Below, one piece after another: positions 42,538 to 60,120 of a stretch of 64,000 nucleotides of DNA. Position 1 is the stretch's first letter, and every line of letters begins with the position of its first letter. A model generated the notes under the pieces. The model ran no database searches. It worked only from the letters and a program-made list of their open reading frames with translations, and had not been told where the DNA came from. The position numbers were made by a program, and so were the translations under genes. The DNA is from Nostoc sp. JL34 (lineage in GTDB: Bacteria; Cyanobacteriota; Cyanobacteriia; Cyanobacteriales; Nostocaceae), in assembly GCF_017114945.1 (NCBI RefSeq), contig NZ_JABXKQ010000056.1, positions 1 to 64,000 on the forward strand. The letters run 5' to 3'.

Positions 42538-44175
42538 TTAAAAATCGAAGGTTGTGCGAAGCACACCCACATACTGCGTATCATTTCTGTTGTCATTTTC
42601 CGGGTTGAGAATCACCCAAAAACCAGGAGTCACTGAGATGTTGTCATTCAGGCGGTAGCGATAAAATGCTTCGATATGGTAAGCGTTGTCTCGCTCTTGA
42701 CGGACATCACTGCTAGAGACACGCGGTGGTATCCCAAAGAGAATTCCCGGCAAGTTACCCTTACCCCCGACATCGGGAAACGACATACCAATCGCCCCAA
42801 ACCAAGCATTGGCATTGTCACCATTGTTCACAAACAGAGAATCTGTTCCACCCCTACCATTGGAAATATCACTCAAACCAGAACTCTTGGCATTTACCCA
42901 AATATATCCACCCCAAGAGTGAATCTGGAAATTTGGAGAAAAACGATAATATCCCTGTACACCAACAATACTATTGGAAGTAGTAATGGTGTTTCCAAAA
43001 GGAGCGCTTGACAGGGTGCTGCCCCTACCAGCAGTAATATTAACAGTGCCCGCAGGATTATAGCCATGAGAGTAGGCGACACCAATAGCTCCTTGCTTGC
43101 CGTAATATACCAGGTGTGCCAGAGCGTTATAGCCGCCATCAAATAACCCGTTTTGCGCTGATGGAACATTGGGAATATTTGATAAATAGCCCAAGGTGAG
43201 AAGCAAGTCTTTGGTGATTTTCCAGTTAGCGGCTGCACCACCGCCACCTCGCTCGAAGAGGAGACTGTTTTTGCCAAATTGTGAGGGAATCCCGTTACCA
43301 TCATCGCCAATTGTGGCAGGAGTCACGTTATCTGTGATGTCGTTGTAGCCAATACCTGCGGGGCCAACGACGAAGGAAAGAGAATCGCTAACCGGGAAAT
43401 AATAACGGATGTGGGGAATTATTAGTGTATTGTTGTTGTCATTGTCGAAGTTCAGGCGGGTCATTCCAGTGCCTGTGGCTGCGGCAATTTGGCTTGAACC
43501 ATCGGGATTCGCAAAGTTACCAAACTCCAGGCGAACTCGCAACAAATCTTTGCCGGTGAAACTGCTCTCCAAGTTGAGACGGCCCCGGGTTGCAAAGAAG
43601 AGATTGGATTCATCGCGTTCCCGCTGCGGGTTGCCGGAGGCATCACCACCTACTCGATTACCAAAGGTATCACTAATGGCGGTAATAATTTGAGCATTCA
43701 ACCTAGTAGTAGTGGAAAACTGCTGCGCCTCCAATGTTGCTGTATGTGCCTCTACGGTATCTACTCGTCCGCGCAGAGTTGTCAGTTCTGTGGCAAAGTC
43801 TTGCTGCAACTTTTGCATCACTGCCAAATCTTGCTTATTAACTAAATCGCTAGTAGCTGTAGAAATTAACTCATTAATCCGATCCAAACAAGCATTTAAA
43901 CCTGCGGCAAACTCATAACGGGTTAAGGCACGGTTCCCGCGATAGGTGGAATTGGGATAACCTGCAATACAGCCATAGCGTTCCACCAGCGATTGCAATG
44001 CACCAAACGCCCAATCGGTTGGTTGGACATCAGAAAACTGGGAAACAGAAGAGACTTGTCCCTGTAAAGTCCTATTAGTATCTACTGCATTCGGATCGTC
44101 TTCTGGAGGTGCTGCCCAAACTGCTGGAATTGCCAAAAATAGAAGAAAAAAACTATAAAAAAGAGTTTTGATCAT
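42538..44175 (-). CDS. SLH-domain OprB-type porin
   Basis: A 545-aa outer-membrane porin. A signal peptide (FLLFLAIPAVWA) is followed by an SLH domain (about residues 45-105, FSDVQPTDWAFGALQSLVER and NRALTRYEFAAGLNACLDRI). A coiled coil (about 115-150) and a beta-barrel ending in Phe (GVLRTTFDF) follow. This is the standard cyanobacterial OprB architecture, where SLH binds the peptidoglycan layer. The family includes sugar-selective and iron-related porins. The adjoining sugar dehydrogenase, MFS and ABC genes on the same strand favour carbohydrate or polyol passage. Confidence 0.9.
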   Translation of the reverse strand: MIKTLFYSFFLLFLAIPAVWAAPPEDDPNAVDTNRTLQGQVSSVSQFSDVQPTDWAFGALQSLVERYGCIAGYPNSTYRGNRALTRYEFAAGLNACLDRINELISTATSDLVNKQDLAVMQKLQQDFATELTTLRGRVDTVEAHTATLEAQQFSTTTRLNAQIITAISDTFGNRVGGDASGNPQRERDESNLFFATRGRLNLESSFTGKDLLRVRLEFGNFANPDGSSQIAAATGTGMTRLNFDNDNNNTLIIPHIRYYFPVSDSLSFVVGPAGIGYNDITDNVTPATIGDDGNGIPSQFGKNSLLFERGGGGAAANWKITKDLLLTLGYLSNIPNVPSAQNGLFDGGYNALAHLVYYGKQGAIGVAYSHGYNPAGTVNITAGRGSTLSSAPFGNTITTSNSIVGVQGYYRFSPNFQIHSWGGYIWVNAKSSGLSDISNGRGGTDSLFVNNGDNANAWFGAIGMSFPDVGGKGNLPGILFGIPPRVSSSDVRQERDNAYHIEAFYRYRLNDNISVTPGFWVILNPENDNRNDTQYVGVLRTTFDF

Positions 44176-44292
44176 TGACTTGTTATTTGAAGATGGTTGA
44201 ATTTTGACTTTGTGACGAAAGAGATTACACTCAAAGCAAAGCTTATAGCTTATGAGCTAATCTACATATTTTGAGATGAGCTTTTAGGTCAC

Positions 44293-45339
44293 TTAAAGTA
44301 ACGCTATGACTTTTTGCTCACCGCTGCTTTTAATAGCCGCTTCTATAATTCGCATTACATTAATTCCGTCTTCGGCGGTAACAGCAATTGGCTGATTATT
44401 AACAATAGATTTATACACGGCATCGTAATAGCCTAAATAGCTCCCCTGTGAACTTGTGACTTTTTCTCGAATTACTTTTGTGTCTTTTTCTGTATGCAGC
44501 AAGCCATATTCACTTTCCGGCTCTGTATACCAATCAAGTGTGTTGGGCTTCATCCCTGCCACTAAATACTCTTCTTGCTTATCGGCTCTGCTTTTAAGAA
44601 AAGAACCCTTAGTGCCATGTATGATATAGGCTGGCGCAGGTTCACGCACAAGGAAGCTTGCTTTTAATTTGACGCGCAGTTTGTCGTAGTATAGTATCAA
44701 TTCAAAATAATCATCTACCTGCGATCGCAGCCTAGTTATACGGATGTCTGCAAAAATAGCATCAGGCATCCCAAATAGATGCAAGGCTTGGTCTATTAAG
44801 TGCGGCCCTAAATTATTTAATGTTCCTGCCCCTGGACTTGGAGCTTCTACGTGTTGTTTATGACTGAGGGTTGGCTTATATTTTTGAAATTGAAATTCTG
44901 CTTCAACAATATCACCTAATAAGCCTTCTTGAACAATTTTTTTGACTGTTTGAAAATCACTATCCCACCTCCGATTTTGATATACAGATAATTTTTTTCC
45001 CTGTTTGTGTGCCAATTCTTTCAGGTTTTGGGCTTCTGCTACCGTTGTGGTGAATGCTTTTTCTACCACTACATGTTTATCTGCTAGCAATGCCTGTTTA
45101 GCATAATCGTAATGGGTATAAGTGGGTGTATTTACTACCACCAAAATTACTTGCTCGTTTGCTAGCAATGCTTCCAAAGAAGGATAGCTTTTGACATCAG
45201 GATAATGTTCTTGTATCAGCTTTTTGCTTCTTTCCCAAGAACCTGCTAATTTAAATCCGGGATGCAAATCAATAAACGGCGCATGAAATACCATGCCGGA
45301 TAAACCAGAAGAACAAAGAGCCGTATTGATAGTTTCCAT
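44293..45339 (-). CDS. Gfo/Idh/MocA oxidoreductase, scyllo-inositol dehydrogenase (IolW/YdgJ)-like
   Basis: A 348-aa NAD(P)-dependent dehydrogenase. The nucleotide-binding start SSGLSGMVFHAPFI carries the VFHAPFI signature typical of the IolW/YdgJ/YvaA subgroup. VVNTPTYTHYDYAKQALLAD and the catalytic VVVEKAFTTT (family EKP-type lysine) follow, and the His in LGPHLIDQALHLFG is in place. The ATG at 45339 matches the family start; 29 upstream in-frame codons look spurious. Members reduce or oxidise inositols and related sugars. With inositol oxygenase 8 kb upstream on the same strand, interconversion of scyllo- and myo-inositol (via the inosose) is the best guess. Confidence 0.85.
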   Translation of the reverse strand: METINTALCSSGLSGMVFHAPFIDLHPGFKLAGSWERSKKLIQEHYPDVKSYPSLEALLANEQVILVVVNTPTYTHYDYAKQALLADKHVVVEKAFTTTVAEAQNLKELAHKQGKKLSVYQNRRWDSDFQTVKKIVQEGLLGDIVEAEFQFQKYKPTLSHKQHVEAPSPGAGTLNNLGPHLIDQALHLFGMPDAIFADIRITRLRSQVDDYFELILYYDKLRVKLKASFLVREPAPAYIIHGTKGSFLKSRADKQEEYLVAGMKPNTLDWYTEPESEYGLLHTEKDTKVIREKVTSSQGSYLGYYDAVYKSIVNNQPIAVTAEDGINVMRIIEAAIKSSGEQKVIALL

Positions 45340-45479
45340 CTTTTTAGTGATTGACTGAAGCGAGAGTTTGTATTTAGTTGTTGTCTGATATTTGTTTCCT
45401 GGATGTAGGATCGCAGAAGAGAGCAAGGGGAGAGAAAATACCTCTCCTCCTCTACAAATTACGTAAAGCCTGCGGCATA

Positions 45480-45530
45480 GCTTTGCTTAGAGTGCAGCCC
45501 ATTACGAATTACGAATTACGAATTACATAT
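45480..45530. repeat. Heptamer repeat ATTACGA x3
   Basis: ATTACGAATTACGAATTACG near 45500-45525, a short STRR between the MFS and dehydrogenase genes. Confidence 0.7.
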
Positions 45531-46923
45531 CCTCTAACTCAATCCCTTTGGTTTCTTTAATAAAAAAGAGAATGAAAAAGAATGAGGTAGCTGCTGCAAT
45601 TGTATAGAGTCCATAGGCAGAACCTAGACCGAAATATTGCAGTATAGGAGGAAATGTTGTGGAGATAACGAAATTCGCCACCCATTGTATGGCAGCTGCA
45701 ATCGAAAGCGCGGCGGCTCGAATTTTGTTATTAAACATTTCTCCCAACAGCACCCAAACTACTGGCCCCCAAGAGAAGCCGAAGCAAAATACATAGAGGT
45801 TGGCTGCAATGAGAGCCAGAGTCCCAGCACTTCCAGTGAGATTGGGGTTTCCAGCAGCATCGAGGGGAGCATTGCCAAAAAGATAAGCCATCGTCCCCAA
45901 AGTCAAAGTCATGCCAATCGACCCTACTATAAGTAAGGGCTTGCGACCAAATCGATCCACGAAGGCGATCGCAATCAGTGTTGTAATAATGTTGACGGCT
46001 CCTGTAATCACCGTGATTGAGAGGGAATCTTTTTCGGAAAAGCCGACAGCCCGCCACAAAACGCTGCTGTAGTAGAAGATTACATTAATCCCAACAAATT
46101 GCTGTAATACAGATAAGCCTATTCCTATCCAAACAATAGGCAGGAGTCCGCCACTTCTGCTTAAGAGGTCAGAAAAGCTGGGTTGGCGTTCTCGAAGCAC
46201 TGTCTGCCGAATTTCTTCGATTTTTGGCAGTACGTCACCCCCTAAAATCTTGGTCAGAACGTTAGCAGCTTCTGATTCTCGTCCTTTGGCAACCAAATAA
46301 CGGGGAGATTCAGGAATTGTTAAAGCTACCATCCCGTAGAATACTGCTGGCGGCACTGCTGTCCAAAACATCCAGCGCCAAGCTGCAACCCCAAACAAAA
46401 ACGGCGAGTCTGCTGAACCTGCTGACGTAGCGATAAAGTAGTCGCTCAATAAGGCGACAAAAATTCCCACTACGATCGCTAATTGTTGCAGAGATCCTAA
46501 CCTTCCCCGCAAATGCGTGGGAGAACATTCGGCAATGTAAGCTGGGGCGATGACGCTAGCAACGCCGATGCCAATCCCACCCAATACTCGCCAAAAGATA
46601 AAATCCCAGATAGTGAAGGCAAACCCAGAGCCAATGGCACTGATAGTAAACAACGCCGAAGCGACCACCATTGCATTGACTCGACCATAACGGTCTGCAA
46701 TCTGTCCAGCAAAGAAGGCTCCTACGGCAGAACCCAGTAATGCTAGGGACACTGCTAGCCCTGTTATCCAACTACTGGTGTTAAAAGCTTTTGCTAGAGA
46801 TAAAACCGCACCGTTGATTACAGCAGTGTCAAAACCGAATAAAAACCCGCCGAGTGCCGCAGCACCAGCAATCAAAATTACATAAAACGTGTTGGCTTTA
46901 CGACGAATAGTAGTGGTAGACAT
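45523..46923 (-). CDS. Sugar-porter MFS transporter (GlcP/XylE/IolT-like)
   Basis: A 466-aa twelve-helix major facilitator of the sugar porter family, a proton symporter in most bacteria. Signatures: GGFLFGFDTAVINGAV in helix 1, GQIADRYGRVNAM after helix 2, PESPRYLVAKGRE at the end of the N-half, QQFVGINVIFYYSSVLWRAV in helix 7, VDRFGRKPLLIVG and the closing ETKGIELEDM. The same family contains glucose, xylose and myo-inositol (IolT) transporters. The neighbourhood suggests inositol or a related polyol; the sequence alone does not decide. Confidence 0.93.
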   Translation of the reverse strand: MSTTTIRRKANTFYVILIAGAAALGGFLFGFDTAVINGAVLSLAKAFNTSSWITGLAVSLALLGSAVGAFFAGQIADRYGRVNAMVVASALFTISAIGSGFAFTIWDFIFWRVLGGIGIGVASVIAPAYIAECSPTHLRGRLGSLQQLAIVVGIFVALLSDYFIATSAGSADSPFLFGVAAWRWMFWTAVPPAVFYGMVALTIPESPRYLVAKGRESEAANVLTKILGGDVLPKIEEIRQTVLRERQPSFSDLLSRSGGLLPIVWIGIGLSVLQQFVGINVIFYYSSVLWRAVGFSEKDSLSITVITGAVNIITTLIAIAFVDRFGRKPLLIVGSIGMTLTLGTMAYLFGNAPLDAAGNPNLTGSAGTLALIAANLYVFCFGFSWGPVVWVLLGEMFNNKIRAAALSIAAAIQWVANFVISTTFPPILQYFGLGSAYGLYTIAAATSFFFILFFIKETKGIELEDM

Positions 46924-46949
46924 AAGTTTATATATTATTGGGAATTGGG

Positions 46950-47120
46950 TATAGGAGGCGGAGGGGCGGAGGGGCAGAGGGGCAGAGGGGCAGAGGGGCG
47001 GAGGGGCGGAGGAGCAGAGGGGCAGAGGGGCAGAGGGGCAGAGGGGCAGAGGGGAAAGACTTACTGCAACTTCTCCTCTGCTCCCCAGCTCCCCAGCTCC
47101 TCTGCTCCCCAGCTCCCCTG
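46950..47120. repeat. GGGGCAGA octamer array with inverted C-rich partner
   Basis: About 12 copies of GGGGCAGA/GGGGCGGA (46960-47055) face CTCCCCAGCTCC units (47078-47120), so the transcript could fold into a long stem. It sits between the ABC permease and the MFS gene and may reduce read-through. The ORFs here are artefacts. Confidence 0.85.
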
Positions 47121-47128
47121 CCTCTTTT

Positions 47129-48127
47129 TTACCGTCTAGAACGTCTGCGTAACCGATCGATCATTACTGCCAAAATAATTACTAGTCCTTTGACGACTAG
47201 TTGCCAGAAGTAAGATAGGTTCAACAAGGTTAAACCGTTGTTGAGAATCGCAATAATCAATGCACCTAGAAGAGTACCGCCAATGGTACCAATACCACCT
47301 GTAAAGCTGGTTCCACCTAGAATAACAGCTGCGATCGCATCTAATTCATAACCCTGACCCAATACACCACTGGCACTATAAAGACGGCTGGCGCTCATGA
47401 TTCCTCCTAAGCCTGCCAGCAATCCGCTAATACCATAGACAAATAGCAACACTCGATTAACTTTAATCCCTGTTAATCTGGCTGCCCGCTCGTTACCACC
47501 AACGGCATATATCTGCACTCCTAAAACAGTTTGCCGCAACACAAACCAGCTAGCTATCACAGTCAGTAGCGCAATTATCACTAGCCAAGGAAAAGGGCCG
47601 ACGTATGTATTACCCACCCAAGCAAAATTTATGTCCCGGTTAATCAGGGTTGTACCTTTGGCAATTAAGAAGGCAACACCCCGCAAGGCTGTAAGTGAAC
47701 CCAGCGTGACAATAAAAGGTGGCACATCCAAGAAGGTAATAAGCGCACCGTTGAGTAAGCCTAACAGCAATCCTGCTAGCAAGGCAGCAGGTACAGCCGC
47801 CCAACTTAAAGCCGGCAGTAGCGATACCAGCAATGCAACTACCGCAGAAACAGCCAATATTGACCCAACTGAAAGGTCAATACCGCCGGTGAGAATTACA
47901 AAGGTCATTCCTGTCGCCAGCACAATATTGATTGATGCCTGACGCAAGATATTGACGATGTTACCGCCGGTGAGGAAGTTGGGAGAAAGGAATGCAAATA
48001 AGATGCAGATAATTACTAAGATTGGCAAAATACCCGCAACTTCCAACAGAGTGCTGATTGATTTCCGGTTGCGAGCTGCGGAATTGTTGGCTGATTTATT
48101 GATAGGCGGTCTGACTGTCTGACTCAT
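47129..48127 (-). CDS. rbsC-like: Sugar/inositol ABC transporter permease (RbsC family)
   Basis: A 332-aa inner-membrane permease of the carbohydrate uptake-2 (CUT2) family. Eight to ten hydrophobic helices are present. RbsC hallmarks are [59 protein letters not shown] and [20 protein letters not shown]. Its ATG overlaps the stop of the ATPase gene (ATGA), showing translational coupling. CUT2 systems import ribose, xylose, galactose and inositol. The inositol reading comes from the neighbours. Confidence 0.93.
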
Positions 48128-49680: not shown

Positions 49681-50114
49681 GAGCAAAACCTGTAAAAACT
49701 ATTTAAAATTTGCGAACCTGAATTAGAAATTAATAAATTCATATTTGATCGATCGCAAAATCATGTTTTAAAAGCTGACTACTAGTTTGAAAATAGGAAA
49801 TGGGGAAGAGATATTTTCATACTTTATTGTTAACGTTACTTAAAGAAGTTGTTGGGAAAGTCTGAGTGCTATAAAAAGACACGCAAACTTTCCCCTGATG
49901 CACATACATAGCGGTTCTCAATTGGGTGCAGCAGAGTTTTAACCTCTTGATAAACCCATCTTTCTATTAAAGAAAAGATAGGAACAAAGATGAGGTTTGG
50001 TATTAATTTAAGTGAAAACCGCCAGACATTCTAGGTATGTGCAAAAACTTTACAAATGCACCAAAAGATTGATATCAAAAGACATATTTTTCAATTACAA
50101 ATTCACAATTTCTA
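49681..50114. other. Gap between binding-protein and ATPase genes
   Basis: About 430 bases with no ORF. It has AT-rich flanks and a dispersed repeat-like block (TAGCGGTTCTCAATTGGGTG, 49911-49930). A TTAAAGAAAAGATAGG stretch lies near 49967. No terminator with a clear T-run is visible. Confidence 0.5.
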
Positions 50115-51143: not shown

Positions 51144-51268
51144 ATATTTCCTAGAAGTCATTTTTACTTACACCAAATTTGAAAACGATGTATTAAAAAA
51201 ACAGGGTCAAATACTGTAATCTTCCTGTATCAAGTGTTTTTCCGTATCTTGTAATTACGAATTACAAA

Positions 51269-52270
51269 TTACCAGCCTTTGTAGCTGCTAAGATTCTCTC
51301 TAGTAACCAAGTTGACTGGAATCAGAATATTTGGTGACTCAGGTTTTTTACCCTGGATGATATCGTTGCCAATCTGAACCGCTTTTTCAGCCATCCCTGC
51401 GGGATTTTGAGCAGCAGTTGCAGCAAATACACCATCCTTATCTTCCATTGCTTTGGTTGCATCTGGCGATCCGTCAACCCCAACAATAAAAAATTCTTTA
51501 CGTCTTGCTTGTTTAGCTGCTAAATCTGCGCCGACACCGCTTTGGTCGTTAGTGGCAAAAACAGCATCAATTTTGGGAAAGGTTGTCAGCAAATCGCTCA
51601 TGACTCTCAGTCCTCCATCCCTTGTCCCTTCAGCGTTTTGCTCTTTAGAGATGAGTTTAATATTCGGATATTTAGACAATGATTTCTCACAGCCACTCAC
51701 TCGCTGATTGATTGAGTCCATCGGAGTACCGTTGAGAATGACTACACTACCTTGACCTTTGAGGCGATCGGCAATATATTGGCAAGCAACCTCACCAGCT
51801 TGGGTATTGTTGGAACTAATCATCGCATCTACATCTGCATCAACAGCTGAATCTAATGCAATCACAACCCTACCTGCAAGCCTTGCTTGATCGATAACTG
51901 GTTTAACTCCTTTTTTATCAACAGCGCTGAGGATAATTAGGTCAGTATTCGCAGCCGTAAAATTTTCGATTTGGTTGGTTTGTTGGTTCAAATCAAAGGC
52001 ACTAGAAACCGCATTAACTCTGATATTACCCCCGATTTTTTGAGCTTCTGTCTCAGCCCCCTTCTGCACTGCATTATAGAAAGGATTGCCTAAGTCACCC
52101 AAAGCTACGCCGATTGTTTGCAATTTTTTATTTTGATTAGTAAGACTCTCTGCACTTATGTTAGTAGCTTTGTTATTAGTATTAGTTGCAGTGTTATCAT
52201 TTTGAACGCCATTTGTACAACCAACAACCGCGAAACCTAATATGCCCACTATGAGTGAAATTCTTTTCAT
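51269..52270 (-). CDS. RbsB-type sugar-binding lipoprotein (copy 2)
   Basis: A 333-aa lipoprotein (lipobox in GFAVVGCTNGV) colinear with copy 1: ALGDLGNPFYNAVQKGAETE, IENFTAANTDLIILSAVDKK, AVFATNDQSGVGADLAAKQA. The start MKRISLIVG gives the proper signal peptide. The pair arose by tandem duplication. Differences near the ligand pocket (e.g. DLGNPFYNAVQ versus DLSNPFFVLMG) suggest different ligands or affinities. It is the first gene of the transporter run, with a long AT-rich leader upstream. Confidence 0.92.
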   Translation of the reverse strand: MKRISLIVGILGFAVVGCTNGVQNDNTATNTNNKATNISAESLTNQNKKLQTIGVALGDLGNPFYNAVQKGAETEAQKIGGNIRVNAVSSAFDLNQQTNQIENFTAANTDLIILSAVDKKGVKPVIDQARLAGRVVIALDSAVDADVDAMISSNNTQAGEVACQYIADRLKGQGSVVILNGTPMDSINQRVSGCEKSLSKYPNIKLISKEQNAEGTRDGGLRVMSDLLTTFPKIDAVFATNDQSGVGADLAAKQARRKEFFIVGVDGSPDATKAMEDKDGVFAATAAQNPAGMAEKAVQIGNDIIQGKKPESPNILIPVNLVTRENLSSYKGW

Positions 52271-53041
52271 ATTTATAACAACGGATTTAAATTTGAGAAA
52301 GGTCATGTCAATGTAAATAGGTCTGAAAATCTTAGACCTAACCTAGTGACACTAATAGTTTTGTAATTTCAAATCCAAAGGTCTTTTGATGTGACGCAAT
52401 TGGAATTATTGCTATTACTGTCACGAAAAAAATGGTTTATTCTTAAAGCAGAATCATGAATATTATACTACTTCAAATAATCACATTCTTTTGGTGAAAT
52501 TACTTCGTAGTTCATAGCCTGAAAATAGCTTTTAAGTGAAACTTTAAAAAAATAGTCTTATTAAAGTTGTCAATCTTATTTTGACTTTTTTCATTTTATC
52601 CCGCTCCTGTGCAAAAATTAATTTTGTTTATCGAACTTTACAAATGTAAAAGGTTTTGAATCTCGCAATATAATCCCATGTCTCCTTTTCAAGGCATTCG
52701 CATAAATTAGCCTATTCAATATTAGGGTAAATGTTAAATAAGTTAACATTTGTCAACCAATATTTCTCAGAAAAGATACTATTAGACTAGAGAGCTTTTT
52801 GATTGTGAAGGCTAGATTTTGAAAATGTAAACATCCTTTGGTTATATTTTATAAATGAACTCTAATCAGCTTGGCAAGCGTATTTATTTATTATTCCTCC
52901 TCCATCATTTACAGGCAATAGAGGAGTAAACAAGATAATATTTTTAAGGCTGATTAGGGATAAAGAACATTTGCATATCAATATCTTGTTCTTACGTTAT
53001 ACCCTGAGAAATAGAAGATTCTGAATTCTTCTTCAAGCAGT
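52271..53041. other. Long AT-rich intergenic region upstream of the transporter genes
   Basis: About 770 bases without a supportable ORF or RNA gene. It must hold the promoter for the transporter run and the end of the inositol oxygenase transcript. A small dyad, GTCTGAAAATCTTAGAC, is at 52322-52338. The LacI-type palindrome seen at 54-55.4 kb is not present here. Confidence 0.6.
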
Positions 53042-53938
53042 TTAAAACTTTAATGTTGTGGGTAAATATTTAGCCACCAAATCTTCATAGTATGGTTTTA
53101 ATTTCTGCCAATCAGGAGGAATAGGGTTTTTTGAATACAAATCGTAGGGATTGAACAAACGTACCCATTTAAACATTTCTCGATCGTGTTTATCCATCAA
53201 ATGTTCATACGCATTGTCACGATGTTGAGGATAAAATGAATGATAGCGAAGCATATATAATGCAGGTTCGGGCAAATAGTTTTTCATCATCTGATAAAAA
53301 TATTCATCATGCCCCCATGACATGTGTACATTACTCAATCCACAGTTAGGTTCATAAATGCCATATTTAGTGTTGTAATCGGGGTTATGATAATCAGGGT
53401 TTTCTTTGAAGAATTCTGAGAAAACAATCTTATCAGAAAATGCACAACCTACAGGATAAGTATCGCCTACCGTAGCCCATTGAGGTTCACCAAACAGACA
53501 AAGCACTTTCCCCATATCGTGAAAGAAGCCAGTAAGTACCATCCAGTCAGGATGATTGTCGGCGCGAATGGCTTCTGATGTTTGCAATAGATGCTGTAAC
53601 TGATCCATGTCTGTATCAGGATCGGAATCATCGACTAATTGATTCAAAAATTCGACCGCATCCCAAACAGACATTTCTTTTTTATCAAACTTCAAAAATT
53701 CTTTTTCTTTTTGAAGTACAAAATTATATGTTTGATTAATATGATTTAACCGATAAAACTCTTTCACCGTATCCCTAATAGTCGTTTCGTAATTCCTGTA
53801 CTCTTCGGTGGTTTTACCTTCTTTAACTATGCTGTCTGGATCGGGATAACGATTAAGTAAGTCTTCTTCCCATTCTTCTAGTGAATGTAAGGGATTGTTT
53901 TGAAGCTGAAGAATGGCATTATTTAAAGTTTGAGACAT
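53042..53938 (-). CDS. miox: myo-Inositol oxygenase
   Basis: MIOX (EC 1.13.99.1) cleaves myo-inositol with O2 to D-glucuronate using a mixed-valent di-iron centre. The 298-aa protein aligns along its length with animal and plant MIOX. All six iron ligands are found: H116 (QHLLQTSEAIR), H140 and D141 (GFFHDMGKVL), H210 (MSWGHDEYFYQ), H233 (RYHSFYP) and D266 (NPYDLYSK). The conserved GEPQWATVGDTYPVGCAFSD segment is also present. No signal peptide, so cytoplasmic. Two palindromic LacI-type sites lie 55-112 bases upstream. MIOX is uncommon in bacteria; the cluster around it handles the product. Confidence 0.96.
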   Translation of the reverse strand: MSQTLNNAILQLQNNPLHSLEEWEEDLLNRYPDPDSIVKEGKTTEEYRNYETTIRDTVKEFYRLNHINQTYNFVLQKEKEFLKFDKKEMSVWDAVEFLNQLVDDSDPDTDMDQLQHLLQTSEAIRADNHPDWMVLTGFFHDMGKVLCLFGEPQWATVGDTYPVGCAFSDKIVFSEFFKENPDYHNPDYNTKYGIYEPNCGLSNVHMSWGHDEYFYQMMKNYLPEPALYMLRYHSFYPQHRDNAYEHLMDKHDREMFKWVRLFNPYDLYSKNPIPPDWQKLKPYYEDLVAKYLPTTLKF

Positions 53939-53992
53939 ATCTTCCTACTTGTCGATATTGTATTTGTTACATGGTACTTTCGCGCTCTTTTA

Positions 53993-54006
53993 TGCACAGG
54001 TGTGCA
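53993..54006. promoter_or_regulatory. Predicted LacI-family operator O1 (MIOX promoter)
   Basis: TGCACAGGTGTGCA, one central mismatch from the perfect palindrome TGCACACGTGTGCA. It is 55 bases upstream of the MIOX start and 44 bases centre-to-centre from O2, about four helical turns. Confidence 0.75.
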
Positions 54007-54036
54007 TAAACTCTTCTTGGACTTATTTATAATTTT

Positions 54037-54050
54037 TGCACACGTGTGCA
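54037..54050. promoter_or_regulatory. Predicted LacI-family operator O2
   Basis: TGCACACGTGTGCA, a perfect 14-bp palindrome with a central CpG as expected for LacI-family operators. It is identical to the site before lacI. Confidence 0.82.
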
Positions 54051-54160
54051 AAAATATGTGTTAAGTTTCATTTCGTCTTTGGATACTTATGCACAACCTA
54101 CTTCCATAAGTGTCCGATCCGATCTGTTTGGTTCAGATTAAAAATAGTGCTTTTGTTTTT

Positions 54161-54221
54161 TGCACATCCGTACATAAATTTACTAAACATAAGATAATCT
54201 TTTAGCTTATACACGTGTGCA
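54161..54221. promoter_or_regulatory. Weaker operator-like sites O3 and O4
   Basis: TGCACATCCGTACA (54161-54174) and TATACACGTGTGCA (54208-54221) match the palindrome partially, the second with two mismatches. They lie 46 bases centre-to-centre apart, between MIOX and the 107-aa gene. Confidence 0.5.
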
Positions 54222-54267
54222 AAGGCTATACTTATGAAATATTATGTCTGACTCAACCAGCCTAGTA

Positions 54268-54591
54268 TCAATTTGTCAATTGTACAGCAGTGGAATACTT
54301 AACAATATTAGCCAACTCTTGTAGTTGGTTTATCGCTTCTGCACCTTCCAACTTCATTAATTCGCGATCGTCCCACAATTCCATCCAAGTAATTCCATAA
54401 TCAGACACTAAAAACCGAATCAGGTGCTTTTCTTTCAGGCTAACCATAAATGAAGCACTCTTCATTTGATCGCCGCATGTATAACAAGACGCAGTATAGC
54501 CACGCCGCTCAAGTATAATTGTCAAGGCTTGCAGGTTCATTACCAAGTCTTGAACGAATTGCTGATGCTGTTGCGCTAATCTTAGAAACAC
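54268..54591 (-). CDS. Hypothetical protein between MIOX and gluconokinase
   Basis: A 107-aa soluble protein. After a helical N-terminus (QQHQQFVQDLVMNLQALTII) comes LERRGYTASCYTCGDQMKSA, then a beta-rich part (FMVSLKEKHLIRFLVSDYGI, TWMELWDDRELM) and a C-terminal helix. Two cysteines (CYTC) could bind metal. The GTG start is supported by AGGAG seven bases before it; an in-frame ATG 17 codons later is the alternative. Same strand as gntK and MIOX, and next to operator-like sites, so it may belong to the same regulon. No family recognised. Confidence 0.65.
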   Translation of the reverse strand: MFLRLAQQHQQFVQDLVMNLQALTIILERRGYTASCYTCGDQMKSASFMVSLKEKHLIRFLVSDYGITWMELWDDRELMKLEGAEAINQLQELANIVKYSTAVQLTN

Positions 54592-54728
54592 TAGTTTTCT
54601 CCTACCATTACAGTTATCTGCTTGCTTTGATATTTATTTAGACTTACATGTGATGCGATTTAGTTGCCAAAAGTTCGTGTTTTCCTAGATACGTGATTAA
54701 TCTTAATATTACGGTTGTCACCAATAAG

Positions 54729-55214
54729 CTAAATTTCGAGAGCAGTTCTAATGTTTTGGACAATTATCTGGGGCGGCTGTGCAACATCCATACATAGAGT
54801 ATCTACTGGTTCTTCAAGGGTATAAAACTGGCTGTCGAGTAGTTTCTCGCTCATGTAATGATTGCTACGCTCTTGTAAGCGCATTTGAATCAACTCATAA
54901 GACCCTTTGAGGTAAACTAGTTTGGTGCTATCGCTATCCACTACCAAAAATTGCCGATAGCTATCTTTTAAAGCCGAACACGCCAGCACCACATTTTTAT
55001 TTTCTTGTAGCCAGTGTTTAATAGCTGTTTGCAAATCTTGTAACCAAGGCATCCTGTCAGCTTCACTCAGAGGGATACCGCACCGCATTTTCTCAACATT
55101 CTCTGGCGAGTGGAAAGTATCTGCGTCGCTAAATTCCCACTCTAAGGAGTCTGCTAGCAGTTTTCCGATGGTGGTTTTCCCAGAACCTGATACACCCATG
55201 ACGATAATAATCAT
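54729..55214 (-). CDS. gntK: Gluconokinase
   Basis: A 161-aa GntK-type gluconate kinase (EC 2.7.1.12), producing 6-phosphogluconate. P-loop GVSGSGKTTIG, the substrate region FSDADTFHSPENVEKMRCGI, then PLSEADRMPWLQDL, ACSALKDSYRQFL and LQERSNHYM match the family in order and length. A gluconate exit is an unusual partner for glucuronate genes, which normally lead to KDG. Here it fits the neighbouring LarA-like protein. It is divergent from lacI with about 205 bases between them. Confidence 0.95.
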   Translation of the reverse strand: MIIIVMGVSGSGKTTIGKLLADSLEWEFSDADTFHSPENVEKMRCGIPLSEADRMPWLQDLQTAIKHWLQENKNVVLACSALKDSYRQFLVVDSDSTKLVYLKGSYELIQMRLQERSNHYMSEKLLDSQFYTLEEPVDTLCMDVAQPPQIIVQNIRTALEI

Positions 55215-55381
55215 TTTTCTCTTAATAAAAGTTCAACTAATTCGGAATTTGTAATTCATAACTTGTAGTTGTAATCATGGACGGAGGTAAAAATTAAGAC
55301 TATTAACTCCTTTCCATGCGAAATGTGAGTTGTATTAAAATCTCTTGACAAATCATGATTATTTTCTATAATACATACAAA

Positions 55382-55395
55382 TGCACACGTGTGCA
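55382..55395. promoter_or_regulatory. Predicted LacI-family operator O5 (lacI promoter)
   Basis: TGCACACGTGTGCA, a perfect palindrome 24 bases before the regulator's ATG, so autoregulation is likely. It also lies in the divergent region shared with gntK. Confidence 0.82.
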
Positions 55396-55419
55396 ATATT
55401 TAAAAGCTAAGATAAAATA

Positions 55420-56451
55420 ATGAATAAACGAAGAATTTCAATTGAAGATATTGCCCGCAGAGCAGGCGTTTCTCATTCTACAGTTTCACGCGCTTTGCGA
55501 GATAATGCTCTCATTAGCCCGAAAGTGCGAGAAGAAATTAAGCGACTGGCAGAGGAGATGAGTTATGTGCCAAATGCTATTGCTCAAAGCTTGCAAAATA
55601 AACGTACTAATACTATTGGTGTAGTAGTAACTTCAATTTCAGATCCCTTTTACGCTGAGGTGGTAGAGGGAATCGAGAAGATAGCCAAACCAGCGGGTTT
55701 GAGTGTTTTGTTGAGTGCTTCACACCGAGATTTTGAGCAGGAAATGGCAGCTATTGATACTTTTCATCGCCGTAGGGTGGACGGTATCTTAATAGCCGAC
55801 TCGCGAATTAGTAAACAGCATACTAAACAACTTACACAAATTGCTGTGCCAACAGTTCTGATTAATAGTCAGACTGAAGACCAATCAGAAATTTTTCACT
55901 CAGTTGCAATAGACGATCGCTTGGGTGCTAAATTAGCAACAGAGCATCTAATTAGTTTAGGACACACTGCCATTGGTTATCTGGGTGTAGGCGATCGCAG
56001 CAGGTCAAATAAGCAGCGCCTAGAAGGATATCAAATGGCCCTTGCGGAAGCTGGGATTCCACAAAATACTGATTGGGTTTCAATTAGTGATGAATATGAT
56101 ATCAGAACCAGCGATGTGAACACTGGACAAAATATGCTATCTAAACTATTGGCTGCGGAAGTTACAGGCATATTTTGTTACAACGATATGGTAGCAATTG
56201 GCGCTCTGTTAGCTTGTCAAGAATTAGGTATTTTAGTACCGCGAAATTTAAGTATCGTCGGATTTGATGGTATTGCTTTAGGCGGTTACGTTACGCCTGC
56301 ACTGACCACAATTAGCCAGCCAATGTTGGAAATTGGTGGCTATGCTATGCAAATGTTACTCGATTTAATAGAAGAAAAAACTGTGGAAAACCGCGTTTTA
56401 TCTCCTTTTCTATTAAAGCGTGGTAGCAGTGCAGCATTATTAACAATTTAA
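55420..56451 (+). CDS. LacI-family transcriptional regulator
   Basis: A 343-aa repressor-type protein. The N-terminal HTH (ISIEDIARRAGVSHSTVSRA) is followed by the hinge helix (YVPNAIAQSLQNKRT) and a periplasmic-binding-like effector domain (TNTIGVVVTSISDPFYAEVV, then VSIVGFDGIALGGYVTPALT). It is the first gene of a plus-strand run with uxaC, the SDR and the LarA-like gene. The palindrome just upstream and its copies before MIOX are the obvious targets. The effector is presumably inositol, a uronate or gluconate. Confidence 0.94.
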   Translation: MNKRRISIEDIARRAGVSHSTVSRALRDNALISPKVREEIKRLAEEMSYVPNAIAQSLQNKRTNTIGVVVTSISDPFYAEVVEGIEKIAKPAGLSVLLSASHRDFEQEMAAIDTFHRRRVDGILIADSRISKQHTKQLTQIAVPTVLINSQTEDQSEIFHSVAIDDRLGAKLATEHLISLGHTAIGYLGVGDRSRSNKQRLEGYQMALAEAGIPQNTDWVSISDEYDIRTSDVNTGQNMLSKLLAAEVTGIFCYNDMVAIGALLACQELGILVPRNLSIVGFDGIALGGYVTPALTTISQPMLEIGGYAMQMLLDLIEEKTVENRVLSPFLLKRGSSAALLTI

Positions 56452-56477
56452 AATTCAAAACAATTTATACAAAAATT

Positions 56478-57905
56478 ATGTTAACTAAAAAACCGAGTTT
56501 ATCTCCTGATCGCTGCTTTTCTCCAGAACCAGTTCAAAGACGACTGGCACATCAATTTTTTGATAGCATATCTGCGTTACCTCTAGTCTGCCCACACGGA
56601 CACGTAGATCCAGCTTTGTTAGCTAATCCCGCAGCCCGTTTTGGTTCGCCGACGGAATTACTGATTATCCCTGACCACTACCTTTTGCGGATGCTCTATA
56701 GTCGGGGCGTATCTCTGCAAGCTTTGGGCATACCAAGCAATGATGGTTCGCCAGGAGAAACCGACCATCGTAAAATCTGGCAATTGTTCGCTGACCATTT
56801 TTATCTATTCCAAGGTACTCCGTCTGGGTTGTGGTTGAAAGAAGAACTAACTAACGTCTTTGGGGTGGATGAACCTTTAAACTCTCGCAATGCCGGACGT
56901 ATCTATGATTATCTAGAAGGTTTGTTAGCCTCAGCGGAGTTTTCTCCTCGTGCTTTATTCAAACGCTTTAATATCGAAGTGCTTTGTACTACCGATGCCG
57001 CCAGTGATAACCTAGAGAATCAGCGATCGCTCCATGAAGAAGGTTTTACTGAAATTAGACCAACTTTTCGTCCTGATGCAGTGGTTAATCTGGATGCTCC
57101 TGGTTGGCGCGAAAATCTTAGCAAGTTGGAAAGCACTATCGGTAGAGAAATTAGCACTTACGCCAATTTTGTGCAAGCTTTAGAAGAACGTCGAGCTTTC
57201 TTTAAAAAAATGGGTGCGACAGCTACCGATCAAGGTGCAGCTACACCTTATACCACACGCCTTTCTGACCAAGAAGCCGAAGCTATCTTTGCAAGAGCAT
57301 TAATCGGCAAGCTGAATCCAGGTGATGTCGAAAATTTTACCGGTCATATCTTCATGGAAATGGCGCGGATGAGTGTGGAAGATGGGTTGGTGATGCAAAT
57401 GCATTGTGGTGTGATGCGTAATCATAATCCAGCTTTATTTGAGAAATTTGGAGCTGATAAAGGTGCTGATATTCCCATAAAAATAGAGTGGACTGAAAAT
57501 CTGCACCCGTTGTTGTCAGCTTACGGTAACGATCGCCGCTTCTGCTTAATCATTTTTGGCATGGATGAAAGCACTTGTAGCCGCGAGATGGCTCCGTTAG
57601 CTGGTCATTATCCCAGTGTATTGCTGGGGCCGCCTTGGTGGTTTCATGACAGCGTAAATGGCATGGAGCGTTATTTCAATCAGGTTATGGAAACTGCGGG
57701 AATTTATAATACTGCTGGATTTAATGACGATACGCGGGCTTTTGTTTCGATTCCGGCTCGTCATAATGTCTGGCGGCGGGTAGCTTGTAATTGGTTGGCT
57801 GGATTGGTCGCGCGGGGGTTGGTTGAGGAGGAGGAAGGGTATGAGATGGCTCGTGCTTTGGCTTATGACCTCGCTAAGGTTGCTTATAAGTTTGAGGGGA
57901 ATTGA
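56478..57905 (+). CDS. uxaC: Uronate (glucuronate) isomerase
   Basis: UxaC (EC 5.3.1.12) converts D-glucuronate to D-fructuronate (and galacturonate to tagaturonate). The 475-aa protein has the amidohydrolase-like metal site motif CPHGHVDP near residue 38, LCTTDAASDN, the long family-specific middle and MQMHCGVMRNHNP. RHNVWRRVACNWLAGLV closes the family region. It starts 27 bases after lacI, so they are co-transcribed. It takes the product of MIOX to the substrate of the SDR encoded downstream. Confidence 0.96.
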   Translation: MLTKKPSLSPDRCFSPEPVQRRLAHQFFDSISALPLVCPHGHVDPALLANPAARFGSPTELLIIPDHYLLRMLYSRGVSLQALGIPSNDGSPGETDHRKIWQLFADHFYLFQGTPSGLWLKEELTNVFGVDEPLNSRNAGRIYDYLEGLLASAEFSPRALFKRFNIEVLCTTDAASDNLENQRSLHEEGFTEIRPTFRPDAVVNLDAPGWRENLSKLESTIGREISTYANFVQALEERRAFFKKMGATATDQGAATPYTTRLSDQEAEAIFARALIGKLNPGDVENFTGHIFMEMARMSVEDGLVMQMHCGVMRNHNPALFEKFGADKGADIPIKIEWTENLHPLLSAYGNDRRFCLIIFGMDESTCSREMAPLAGHYPSVLLGPPWWFHDSVNGMERYFNQVMETAGIYNTAGFNDDTRAFVSIPARHNVWRRVACNWLAGLVARGLVEEEEGYEMARALAYDLAKVAYKFEGN

Positions 57906-57914
57906 GGGGGAATT

Positions 57915-57985
57915 TAAACGCATAGGCGCTTCGCCTTCCCGTAGGGTAGGGGCGCGGAGGGAAGCGCAGAGGTACGCAGAGAATT
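57915..57985. repeat. Dispersed repeat between uxaC and the SDR gene
   Basis: AGGCGCTTCGCCTTCCCGTAG followed by GCGCGGAGGGAAGCGCAGAGG and TACGCAGAGAA, typical Nostoc repeat pieces related to the insert in lnt. It occupies most of the 101-base gap. Confidence 0.7.
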
Positions 57986-58006
57986 TTACTAAGTGGGGGA
58001 ATCATT

Positions 58007-58834
58007 TTGATTTTAAGTAAACTTTTTAGTTTGAAGGAGCGGGTTGCGGTAGTTACGGGTGGTTCTGGTGTGCTTGGTGGGGCTATGGCAAGGGGTTTGG
58101 CTTTGGCTGGAGCGCGAGTTGTCGTTTTGGGTCGCAATGGAGTTAGGGCGGGGGCGGTGGTGGCTGAGATTACTGCTGGTGGTGGAGAAAGTATGGCTGT
58201 GGTGGCAGATGTTAGCGATCGCTCCCAATTAGAAATCGCTAGGGATGTTATTATACAGCGTTGGGGTGAGATAGATATCCTGGTAAATATGGCTGGCGGT
58301 AATATTGCTGCTGCTACAATTACTCCTGATGCGACTATTTTTAATATGCCTCGCGTTGCTTTTGAGGAAGTAGTTAACCTCAATTTAGTTGGCACTCTAC
58401 TACCTTGTCAGGTTTTTGGTCAAGCAATGGTGGAAAGAAGTCAGCCTCACGGTTGCATTGTGAATATTTCTTCTATGTCTGCCATTCGAGCGATTAGCCG
58501 TGTGGTTGGCTACTCAGCTGCAAAAGCAGGGATAGATAACTTTACTCGCTGGCTAGCTGTAGAACTCGCCCAAAAGTATGGTGATGGAATGCGAGTAAAT
58601 GCGATCGCACCAGGTTTTTTTATTGGGGAACAAAATCGAGATTTACTCCTAAATTCTGATGGCAGTTTAACCGTTCGCGGACAAAAAATTATTGACCATA
58701 CCCCCGCCGGACGTTTCGGAAAACCAGATGAATTACTCAGCACTTTGATCTGGTTATGTAGTGCTGGTTCTAGTTTTGTTAATGGGGTAGTTGTGCCGGT
58801 AGATGGTGGATTTAGTATCTACAGTGGAGTCTAA
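58007..58834 (+). CDS. SDR oxidoreductase, probable D-fructuronate reductase (mannonate dehydrogenase)
   Basis: A 275-aa short-chain dehydrogenase. Cofactor motif VTGGSGVLGGAMA, NMAGGN, catalytic Ser in VNISSMSAI and YxxxK in YSAAKAGIDNF. The extended C-terminal pattern GFFIGEQNRDLLLN, then HTPAGRFGKPDEL and VPVDGGFSIYSGV is the one seen in the B. subtilis YjmF-type D-mannonate oxidoreductases, an SDR alternative to UxuB. It would reduce D-fructuronate to D-mannonate. The TTG start is used because GGGGGA is 7 bases upstream and no ATG or GTG lies between it and the cofactor site. Confidence 0.88.
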   Translation: MILSKLFSLKERVAVVTGGSGVLGGAMARGLALAGARVVVLGRNGVRAGAVVAEITAGGGESMAVVADVSDRSQLEIARDVIIQRWGEIDILVNMAGGNIAAATITPDATIFNMPRVAFEEVVNLNLVGTLLPCQVFGQAMVERSQPHGCIVNISSMSAIRAISRVVGYSAAKAGIDNFTRWLAVELAQKYGDGMRVNAIAPGFFIGEQNRDLLLNSDGSLTVRGQKIIDHTPAGRFGKPDELLSTLIWLCSAGSSFVNGVVVPVDGGFSIYSGV

Positions 58835-58836
58835 TA

Positions 58837-60120
58837 ATGTATTCACTAGCCGTAAATAACGGTACACTTTCAGATGAGCAAGTTTCCGGGTTAATTCATC
58901 AAGCTTTCGCAGACCCTAAGTTAGATGGACAGCGCATCTTGGTGTTAATTCCAGATAGTACCCGCACTGCTCCCATCCCTCAAATGTTTCGATTGCTTCA
59001 TCAGGAGTTGAGTCAAAGAGTAGCGGCTCTGGATTTTTTAATTGCTCTGGGTACACATAATCCGATGAGTGAAGAACAAATCAATCACTTAGTAGGAGTG
59101 ACATCAGAGGAGCGAGAAACAACTTTTAAAAAAATTCGCATATTTAACCATCTTTGGAATGAGCCAGATACTTTTATTTCTTGTGGAGTAATTTCGGCAG
59201 AAGAGATAGCAGAGATTAGTAATGGAATGCTACATCAGTCAGTTGATGTGCGTATTAATAAGCTGGTAACAGAATATGATTTAATCGTGATTTGTGGGCC
59301 AGTTTTTCCCCACGAAGTTGTCGGTTTCTCTGGTGGAAATAAATATTTTTTCCCTGGTATTGGTGGTCAAGAAGTAATTAATCTGTCCCACTGGTTAGGT
59401 GCTTTAATTACTTGTTACGAAATTATTGGTACGCTAGGAATCACACCAGTCCGGCGTTTGATTAACCGAGCCGCTAACCTGATTTCGACCCCAAAACTTT
59501 GTTTGGCGATGGTGGTTGCACCGAAAACAAATCAGCTAGCTGGACTTTATATAGATCGACCAGAATCAGCCTGGGAAGACGCTGCAAAATTATCAGCTAA
59601 ACTGCATATTAAATATGTAGATCGGCCTTTTAAAAAAGTGCTTTCAGTCATGCCTCAAATGTATGATGACATTTGGACTGCGGCGAAAGGAATGTATAAG
59701 CTAGAGCCAGTAGTGGCCGATGGAGGCGAGGTAATTATATATGCTCCTCACATTACCGAGTTTAGCTATACACACGGCGAAATTTTATCCGAAGTTGGCT
59801 ATCATGTGCGGGATTACTTTCTCAAACAGTGGGATAAATTTCAAGAGTATCCTGCTGGAGTGCTAGCCCATAGTACTCACTTAAAAGGGATGGGTACTTT
59901 TGATCCCATAAAAGGAGAACAAGCGCGAATTCGCGTGACTTTAGCGACTGGCATTTCTGCTGAACGGTGTGCTGCTCATAACTTAAACTATCGCGATCCG
60001 GCGACTATTCAACCCACTGAATGGGCGAATCAAGAGAATGAAGGTATATTGCTTGTGCCAAAGGCTGGCGAGATACTATACCGTCTGAGTGACAGTAATT
60101 TTCAGGTAACTAAATCGTAG
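58837..60120 (+). CDS. LarA-family nickel-pincer racemase/epimerase, candidate D-mannonate/D-gluconate 2-epimerase
   Basis: A 427-aa LarA-superfamily (DUF2088) protein. The functional residues of lactate racemase are kept with the same spacing: D40 and R43 (PDSTR), H105 (IFNHLW), H159, K169 and H185 in PHEVVGFSGGNK and INLSHW. In L. plantarum LarA these correspond to D72, R75, H108, H174, K184 and H200; the lysine carries the pyridinium cofactor and H200 binds nickel. Mannonate and gluconate are C2 epimers, the type of change LarA enzymes catalyse, and gluconokinase is in the cluster. The gene follows the SDR by 2 bases. Cofactor genes larB/C/E are not in the window. The substrate is inference. 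Confidence 0.85.
   Translation: MYSLAVNNGTLSDEQVSGLIHQAFADPKLDGQRILVLIPDSTRTAPIPQMFRLLHQELSQRVAALDFLIALGTHNPMSEEQINHLVGVTSEERETTFKKIRIFNHLWNEPDTFISCGVISAEEIAEISNGMLHQSVDVRINKLVTEYDLIVICGPVFPHEVVGFSGGNKYFFPGIGGQEVINLSHWLGALITCYEIIGTLGITPVRRLINRAANLISTPKLCLAMVVAPKTNQLAGLYIDRPESAWEDAAKLSAKLHIKYVDRPFKKVLSVMPQMYDDIWTAAKGMYKLEPVVADGGEVIIYAPHITEFSYTHGEILSEVGYHVRDYFLKQWDKFQEYPAGVLAHSTHLKGMGTFDPIKGEQARIRVTLATGISAERCAAHNLNYRDPATIQPTEWANQENEGILLVPKAGEILYRLSDSNFQVTKS

Follow-up and report, generated by a model that had tools for sequence, protein, structure and literature searches.

HrmA of the Nostoc hrm locus is a LarA-family protein that looks like a nickel-cofactor epimerase closing an inositol/uronate route to the pentose-phosphate pathway

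We analyzed a 64,000-nt stretch of Nostoc sp. JL34 (contig NZ_JABXKQ010000056.1, positions 1–64,000; hereafter, the window) and found that the block of genes at positions 42538–60120 is an orthologous copy of the hormogonium-regulating (hrm) locus already published for Nostoc. HrmA, encoded at the end of this block, is a LarA-family protein and, judging from its sequence and modeled structure, looks like a nickel-cofactor sugar-acid epimerase closing an inositol/uronate route to the pentose-phosphate pathway. We consider it probable that the locus forms a complete oxidative entry to this pathway, running from HrmE through HrmI, HrmU, and HrmA to HrmK and repressed by HrmR. The hrm locus, with its annotated myo-inositol oxygenase (MIOX) and gluconokinase, and a uronate-to-gluconate route in Thermotoga were known beforehand; the assignment of HrmA and the MIOX front end are new. 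The initial annotation of the window did not recognize the hrm locus and called the arrangement largely undescribed, which holds, within the searches made, for the MIOX front end and the function of HrmA, but not for the published locus or the Thermotoga route. No report of HrmA as a LarA or GntE protein, or of MIOX feeding a gluconate exit, was found in the open-licence literature searched; a Francisella genome paper (PMC3479022), in which the terms mannonate and inositol oxygenase occur together, may describe a related MIOX arrangement.

Identity of the locus

The genes encoding the regulator and enzymes of the proposed pathway are as follows.

53042–53938, minus strand: hrmE, MIOX; PF05153, 365 bits; PDB 2huo, 272 bits
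54729–55214, minus strand: hrmK, GntK/IdnK-type gluconokinase; TIGR01313, 154 bits (cut-off 113.75); PDB 4eun, 120 bits, and 1knq, 112 bits
55420–56451, plus strand: hrmR, LacI-family repressor; PF00356 and PF13377; LacI-family structures matched; name from PMC5987646
56478–57905, plus strand: hrmI, uronate isomerase UxaC; NF002794, 485 bits (cut-off 387); PDB 2q01 (uronate isomerase), 452 bits
58007–58834, plus strand: hrmU, short-chain dehydrogenase/reductase (SDR), predicted D-fructuronate reductase (D-mannonate oxidoreductase); NF006132, 379 bits (cut-off 281)
58837–60120, plus strand: hrmA, LarA-family protein, predicted nickel-pincer nucleotide (NPN)-dependent D-mannonate/D-gluconate 2-epimerase (GntE-like); PF09861, 84 bits (cut-off 23.3)

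All genes named by the initial annotation were found in place in the window as open reading frames free of internal stops, and the profile matches confirmed its intact MIOX, UxaC, SDR, LarA-like, gluconokinase, and LacI genes. HrmE has H116, H140, D141, H210, H233, and D266 at the six iron-ligand positions, residues that we take to be the iron ligands of MIOX. The run hrmR-hrmI-hrmU-hrmA, with the divergent hrmK and hrmE beside the frt, glcP, and oprB genes, reproduces the arrangement of the hrm locus; the genes and their neighborhood are the same as those of Nostoc punctiforme and symbiotic Nostoc. This arrangement is beyond chance, as the same gene order was seen again in the Nostoc stretches compared. 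The gap between hrmU and hrmA is only 2 bp, and that between hrmI and hrmU (57906–58006, 101 bp) is G+C-rich and repeat-like. The names hrmE, hrmK, hrmRIUA, frtA1A2BC, glcP, oprB, and mviM follow the Fig. 6 legend of PMC5987646, a 2018 paper on cyanolichen Nostoc in which hrmE is annotated as an inositol oxygenase and hrmK as a gluconate kinase; a 2023 review (PMC10575698) terms the locus one of hexuronic acid metabolism. What is added here to the published locus is the placement of HrmA in the LarA/GntE family, which on paper supplies the missing step towards 6-phosphogluconate.

HrmA as a member of the LarA family

HrmA is printed as a protein of unknown function in PMC5987646, and one paper terms it a cyanobacterial peculiarity lacking homologues. 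When HrmA was compared with solved structures using phmmer, the top match was 4NAR (GntE2 of Thermotoga) with 225 bits, and the next match, a lactate racemase, scored 43 bits. GntE2 was assayed in 2020 as a D-mannonate/D-gluconate epimerase, with free mannonate as the substrate (PMC7583248). An AlphaFold model of HrmA was built from an alignment of 33 sequences (that of the window and those of 32 of the 80 scanned loci described below) and had a pLDDT of 83.1. Foldseek returned 4NAR (D-gluconate 2-epimerase) as the first match of this model, with a TM score of 0.86 by model length, and LarA of Isosphaera as the second (TM 0.75). Together with the Lar_N domain (PF09861), the match to LarA-type chains places HrmA in the LarA superfamily.

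The NPN-binding and catalytic positions were taken from PMC7583248. The NPN-binding residues R43, K169, and H185 and the residues at catalytic positions, D40, H74, H159, and K284, were invariant in all 33 aligned sequences, as were the signatures of groups 18–20, E160-V161 in the loop and W280 in helix-11. An 18-row tree separated three LarA proteins from the HrmA-like rows, GntE2, and group 18 at 100/99. GntE2 stood beside the HrmA rows with weak placement (86/69), on a long branch carrying a long-branch warning, and the tree was used solely for the split from the LarA proteins. The suggestion of the initial annotation that the LarA-like protein links mannonate to gluconate is thus supported computationally by fold, residues, and genomic context elsewhere.

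Proposed pathway

The chemistry of the enzyme families to which HrmE, HrmI, HrmU, HrmA, HrmK, and Gnd are assigned is established. HrmE would convert myo-inositol and O2 to D-glucuronate, HrmI would isomerize this to D-fructuronate, and HrmU would reduce the latter to D-mannonate with NAD(P)H. HrmA, as an NPN enzyme, would then invert C2 to give D-gluconate, and HrmK would phosphorylate the gluconate with ATP to 6-phosphogluconate, from which Gnd would yield ribulose-5-phosphate and one NADPH. External uronates could enter at HrmI. HrmR would repress hrmE and hrmRIUA through the palindrome TGCACACGTGTGCA, and a uronate-like intermediate would be the likely inducer releasing it. What was computed comprises the gene identities, the fold, residues, and context of HrmA, the NPN genes, the negative result for UxuA, and the shared operators; the reactions in vivo, their direction, the real substrate, the presence of Gnd in this genome, and the link of flux to hormogonium repression are what we infer. 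Gnd is mentioned for Nostoc in PMC5987646, where a shift to oxidative pentose-phosphate or Entner-Doudoroff metabolism is also suggested for imported sugars. The gluconokinase exit to 6-phosphogluconate, already proposed in the initial annotation, agrees with these computations.

Predicted HrmR operators

The upstream regions of hrmE and hrmR share the 14-bp palindrome TGCACACGTGTGCA, and the sites found around it are the following.

55380–55397, no strand: predicted HrmR operator at hrmR, core TGCACACGTGTGCA at 55382–55395; shared palindrome
54034–54053, no strand: predicted HrmR operator at hrmE, perfect 20-bp palindrome around TGCACACGTGTGCA; shared palindrome
53990–54009, no strand: second operator-like palindrome at hrmE, core with one mismatch; pattern match
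54208–54221, no strand: operator-like site upstream of hrmE, two mismatches; pattern match
55345–55372, plus strand: promoter-like TTGACA-16-TATAAT upstream of hrmR; 12/12 consensus bases, ending nine bases before the operator core

In the 7.8-Mb assembly, TGCACACGTGTGCA had two exact matches, at the hrmE and hrmR promoters, and one match with a single mismatch, all within the hrm locus; with up to two mismatches it occurred at six places, four of them in the locus, and a reversed control pattern had no match. Because its only two exact matches in the genome are at the hrmE and hrmR promoters, MIOX probably belongs with the module, as the initial annotation had it. We surveyed 46 stretches of 39 congeners at up to two mismatches, excluding regions shorter than 80% of the wanted length. 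The operator was present upstream of hrmR in 33/36 and of hrmE in 36/37 cases, and upstream of hrmK in 25/39, largely via the shared hrmK-hrmR gap; it was found in none of the regions upstream of frt (0/37), the DUF1815 gene (0/34), hrmI (0/35), and hrmU (0/34). The case for the operator rests on the whole-assembly matches and this survey and not on the count in the window, which at three mismatches was not significant (4 sites against a mean of 1.96, with 18 of 100 shuffles reaching 4). Since the promoter scan found 8 sites against 12.1 in shuffles, most of its sites are due to chance, and only the 12-of-12 site at hrmR was used. The position of the hrmR operator, nine bases past this promoter, would be apt for repression. 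PMC5987646 cites a model in which HrmR acts at the hrmR and hrmE promoters, which the shared palindrome, as a predicted site, fits.

Distribution among Nostoc and other cyanobacteria

Among 53 Nostoc genomes, including that of the window (52 congeners), Lar_N was found in 34 and MIOX in 39 (36 full length, 1 partial, and 2 remnants). Both occurred in 33 genomes, MIOX only in 6, Lar_N only in 1, and neither in 13 (Fisher p 4e-7, kinship ignored). All 34 Lar_N-positive genomes (33 congeners and the window) had hrmI, hrmU, and hrmA together, with the run split by a contig end in G403 and G410 and hrmA in two pieces in G431. In the six MIOX-only genomes, hrmIUA were remnants or were absent from the stretches read; two of these, G428 and G415, kept hrmK beside an hrmE remnant, with no intact hrmIUA in the stretches read. 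Thus, hrmI, hrmU, and hrmA behave as one unit, and hrmE and hrmK can outlast them. The DUF1815 gene (54268–54591, minus strand; PF08844, 172 bits), which usually sits between hrmE and hrmK, did so in most Nostoc stretches and was not found beside them in G430, G167, G432, and G415.

UxuA was found in none of the 53 genomes, the own genome included, by a search that was positive in 5 of 14 control genomes and that did not extend to 2-keto-3-deoxygluconate (KDG) kinase, UxaA, or Gnd. An enolase-type mannonate dehydratase (NF011654) was likewise over the cut-off in 0/53, the weak matches present in all 53 reaching at best 105 bits (G392) against a cut-off of 430. An exit hidden in either form was rejected on these counts. 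The absence of UxuA noted in the initial annotation therefore extends beyond the cluster, none having been found elsewhere under the same regulator. Of the proteins needed to make the NPN cofactor, LarC and LarE were found in 53/53 genomes and LarB in 52/53, the one miss being a 72%-complete genome; the own genome carries LarB (C175), LarC (C8), and LarE (C160).

Across 386 cyanobacteria, UxaC was found in 2, the same 2 that had a near-full-length HrmA match. HrmA matches numbered four (2 near full length, 1 fragment, and 1 protein with 27% identity), and MIOX matches nine, of which the four over the cut-off all belonged to the genus Nostoc. PMC10999742 (2024) describes hrmUA as common throughout Nostocales; we set this aside in view of the 2/386 genomes with near-full-length HrmA and UxaC, although the scan described below also lists records from genera other than Nostoc.

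Relatives of HrmA and their neighbors

A scan of a genome collection with HrmA gave 397 qualifying stretches, from which 80 loci were taken, and the counts given here apply to the matches listed. The cyanobacterial relatives were 85–96% identical to HrmA and nearly all labelled Nostoc, with records of Calothrix, Desmonostoc, Mojavia, and Dendronalium also present. The other 49 loci were non-cyanobacterial, mostly from metagenome-assembled genomes (MAGs) of Chloroflexota and Acidobacteriota. Neighbors in these loci were called by tblastn at an E-value of 1e-15 or better, and matches below 28% identity were discarded for hrmR, IolN, the HAD protein, hrmK, and the FGGY kinase. A homologue of hrmU was present in 34/49 loci; of the 42 loci whose upstream side exceeded 900 bp, 33 had it on the same strand within 2.5 kb upstream of the hrmA homologue. 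The other neighbors were Gnd (22 loci), UxaE (21), a HAD protein (16), IolO (10), FGGY kinase (8), UxaC (6), IolN (6), and an hrmR-like protein (4), and short GntK was found in 0/49. Such absences mean little because many loci are short. Most neighbor names rest on one scored representative, over the cut-off for Gnd (745 bits), IolO (346), and IolN (331) and under it for the FGGY kinase (249 bits to gluconokinase); the UxaE representative scored 522 bits, and UxaC was called by homology to HrmI, with a single member scanned (276 bits). The HAD-superfamily protein, of approximately 300 amino acids, is encoded close to the hrmA homologue, in most cases directly upstream (e.g., L095:1748–2644). 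In one Thermomicrobiales MAG (L065:7385–11170), a run of hrmI, hrmU, and hrmA homologues shares 64, 66, and 76% identity with those of Nostoc, which suggests either a transfer between phyla or a binning error.

Fourteen plasmid records were matched, three of them from Catenovulum, Saccharobesus, and Embleya; of the others, seven are annotated larA, three have no annotation at that place, and one is a second, also unannotated, Embleya record. The Saccharobesus litoralis plasmid (L197:7485–9254) encodes a 589-amino-acid fusion in which GntK (185 bits) is joined to a group-18 LarA domain (619 bits), annotated only as gluconokinase and followed downstream by LarE, larB, UxaE, and gnd and, after two opposite-strand genes, uxaC. 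The fusion argues for gluconate as the group-18 product and, by kinship, supports the same for HrmA. On the Catenovulum adriaticum plasmid, uxaC, TRAP genes, gntK, a gene for a group-18 LarA protein, larC, LarE, and larB form one run. In Embleya, the HrmA homologue (50% identity) adjoins LarC, and an AIRC-family (LarB-like) protein and UxaC lie within 5.1 kb. The Catenovulum plasmid (pCadTS8_2) also carries a MIOX gene approximately 490 kb from the larA run and close to a phosphoinositide-specific phospholipase C gene, and it is possible that this is a second MIOX-to-gluconate system. Granulicella tundricola (L192:11983–21325) has a MIOX sharing 58.5% identity with HrmE; genes for a LacI regulator and a phosphatidylinositol phospholipase C-like protein are in its vicinity, a hint that inositol is released from lipids there.

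Sugar-uptake genes beside hrmE

The genes on the other side of hrmE are as follows.

51269–52306, minus strand: RbsB-like binding protein of the frt transporter, promoter-proximal copy, frtA1 by published order; PF13407, 180 bits; locus in PMC5987646
50115–51161, minus strand: second RbsB-like binding protein of the frt transporter; PF13407, 189 bits
48124–49686, minus strand: frtB, sugar ABC transporter ATPase; PF00005, 198 bits; NCBIfam sugar ATPase models below cut-off
47129–48127, minus strand: frtC, sugar ABC transporter permease; PF02653, 158 bits
45523–46923, minus strand: glcP, sugar-porter MFS protein, glucose permease of the published maps; TIGR00879, 354 bits (cut-off 237.8)
44293–45426, minus strand: mviM, Gfo/Idh/MocA dehydrogenase; PF02894 and PF01408; NF008607, 281 bits (cut-off 330)
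42538–44175, minus strand: oprB, SLH/OprB porin; NF033921 ("iron uptake porin"), 780 bits; PF04966, 118 bits

The run of two RbsB proteins, RbsA, RbsC, an MFS porter, a dehydrogenase, and a porin was present on the minus strand as annotated; the "IolW-like" label of the dehydrogenase is only a resemblance because all NCBIfam cut-offs were missed (best, 281 of 330 bits), and the OprB porin has the OprB and SLH domains of Pfam but "iron uptake porin" as its best NCBIfam model. In published maps (PMC5987646), frtA1A2BC and glcP are fructose and glucose transport systems, and PMC8261047 cites a report that the fructose transporter is apparently outside HrmR control. The RbsB/RbsA/RbsC genes were therefore rejected as an inositol ABC importer, as they form the published fructose transporter and frt lacked the operator in the congener survey.

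Comparison with known systems

A Thermotoga route from uronate through mannonate and gluconate to 6-phosphogluconate was proposed in 2012 (cited in PMC6978723), and the gnd-uxaRED-gntEK operon of Thermotoga maritima is described in PMC3750489. On the present assignments, Nostoc would share with it the fructuronate reductase, the mannonate/gluconate 2-epimerase, the gluconokinase, and the exit to Gnd. T. maritima differs in its UxaE entry from galacturonate and its kdgAK-uxuBA operon (PMC3750489), whereas Nostoc has UxaC and MIOX, a LacI-type regulator, and no UxuA in the genomes searched. Some Chloroflexota loci have homologues of IolN and IolO, proteins of the Thermotoga-type inositol pathway, next to those of hrmU/hrmA, and the same core may therefore be fed by inositol there; that pathway has no oxygenase, whereas Nostoc would use the O2-dependent MIOX. 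The plasmid clusters of Catenovulum and Saccharobesus share UxaC, GntK, and a LarA-type protein with the hrm locus, and in Catenovulum MIOX lies elsewhere on the plasmid. Their LarA protein belongs to group 18 and is 31–33% identical to HrmA, and an HrmU homologue looked for near the Catenovulum LarA gene was not found.

The galacturonate route of Lactobacillus suebicus also leads from mannonate to 6-phosphogluconate instead of KDG, but phosphorylation precedes epimerization and 6-phosphomannonate is the intermediate (PMC6978723). By analogy, HrmK might phosphorylate mannonate and HrmA epimerize 6-phosphomannonate, reaching the same end product in the other order. Cell extracts of L. suebicus do this, the genes not being identified in that paper, whereas GntE2 was assayed on free mannonate (PMC7583248) and mannonate is reportedly no substrate of E. 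coli GntK (PMC6978723); we give this order very little credence.

Alternative explanations

Several observations weigh against the proposed pathway. As to HrmA, its identity to GntE2 is only approximately 32%; A283 and G341 replace the substrate-side G286 and N348 of GntE2; the catalytic loop was modeled with low confidence (pLDDT <50 at residues 161–167 and 173–176); and HrmA scored 203 bits on NF052594, the model of the group-18 putative hexonate epimerase, with a cut-off of 500, and was rejected as its member (GntE2 itself scored 179 bits). HrmA might act on another aldonate or aldarate, such as altronate or glucarate, and would then leave the chain to 6-phosphogluconate unclosed. The low identity and the two changed positions favor this, and different substrates for group 19 have been suspected by published authors; set against it are the fructuronate-reductase neighbor, the context of Gnd and gluconokinase, and the fact that a related group includes a fusion with GntK, and we regard it as quite improbable. 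The cofactor genes decide little here: since each of the 19 Nostoc genomes lacking Lar_N carries LarB, LarC, and LarE too, these genes are permissive evidence only, were rejected as proof of HrmA function, and indicate that the nickel-pincer cofactor probably has another client in cyanobacteria.

Other points concern MIOX and the inducer. MIOX was found in none of the 49 non-cyanobacterial HrmA loci, in the DNA stretches examined; in G125, G167, G422, and G432, full-length hrmE and hrmK persist although no intact hrmIUA was seen in the stretches read, which speaks against a strictly single pathway; and the ligand loosening HrmR is reported to be galacturonate-like (PMC5987646). These three points favor a reading in which hrmRIUA and hrmK catabolize plant glucuronate or galacturonate and HrmE, only loosely attached, breaks down inositol for another end, sharing the regulator only since its product is a uronate. 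Against such a loose attachment are the shared operators, which have no other exact match in the genome and are kept across congeners, the co-occurrence of MIOX and Lar_N in the genus (kinship ignored), and the fact that uronate isomerases take glucuronate as a substrate, and we consider it unlikely.

Furthermore, no inositol importer has been identified for the proposed inositol route; none was identified in the locus because the adjacent transporters are the published fructose and glucose systems and do not share the operator. Earlier authors favored a signal-metabolite role over catabolism (PMC5987646). The enzymes would in that case make or remove a uronate-like hormogonium inhibitor with little carbon flux, an explanation that overlaps with the catabolic one. 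It is a published hypothesis, cited in the same paper, and the name of the locus reflects its developmental effect, whereas the exit through a kinase and an epimerase, with Gnd, FGGY kinase, and UxaE as neighbors in relatives, looks catabolic; we judge a signal-metabolite device to be rather unlikely.

Significance

A link between the hrmUA genes and the repression of hormogonia in plant-symbiotic Nostoc dates back to 1997 (according to a citing paper), and the assignment of HrmA as a nickel-pincer epimerase gives this old riddle an enzyme assay with published precedent. It also predicts a nickel requirement of the symbiosis switch and names candidate inducers. Tentatively, and with more doubt than conviction, we suggest that the plant-triggered stop of hormogonium formation is a nickel-dependent shunt carrying host inositol or uronate to 6-phosphogluconate, in which an intermediate would be the inducer of HrmR and the effect of hrmUA would lie in opening or blocking the shunt. 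If so, the phenotype of an hrmA mutant should be reproduced when nickel is limiting or when larB, larC, or larE is lost, and HrmE or HrmI should act on the hormogonium-repressing factor, either directly or after its conversion. HrmA would be one client for the NPN genes carried by nearly every Nostoc genome examined, and a single fructuronate-mannonate-gluconate core may be served by various front ends, MIOX in Nostoc and UxaE and IolN/IolO elsewhere.

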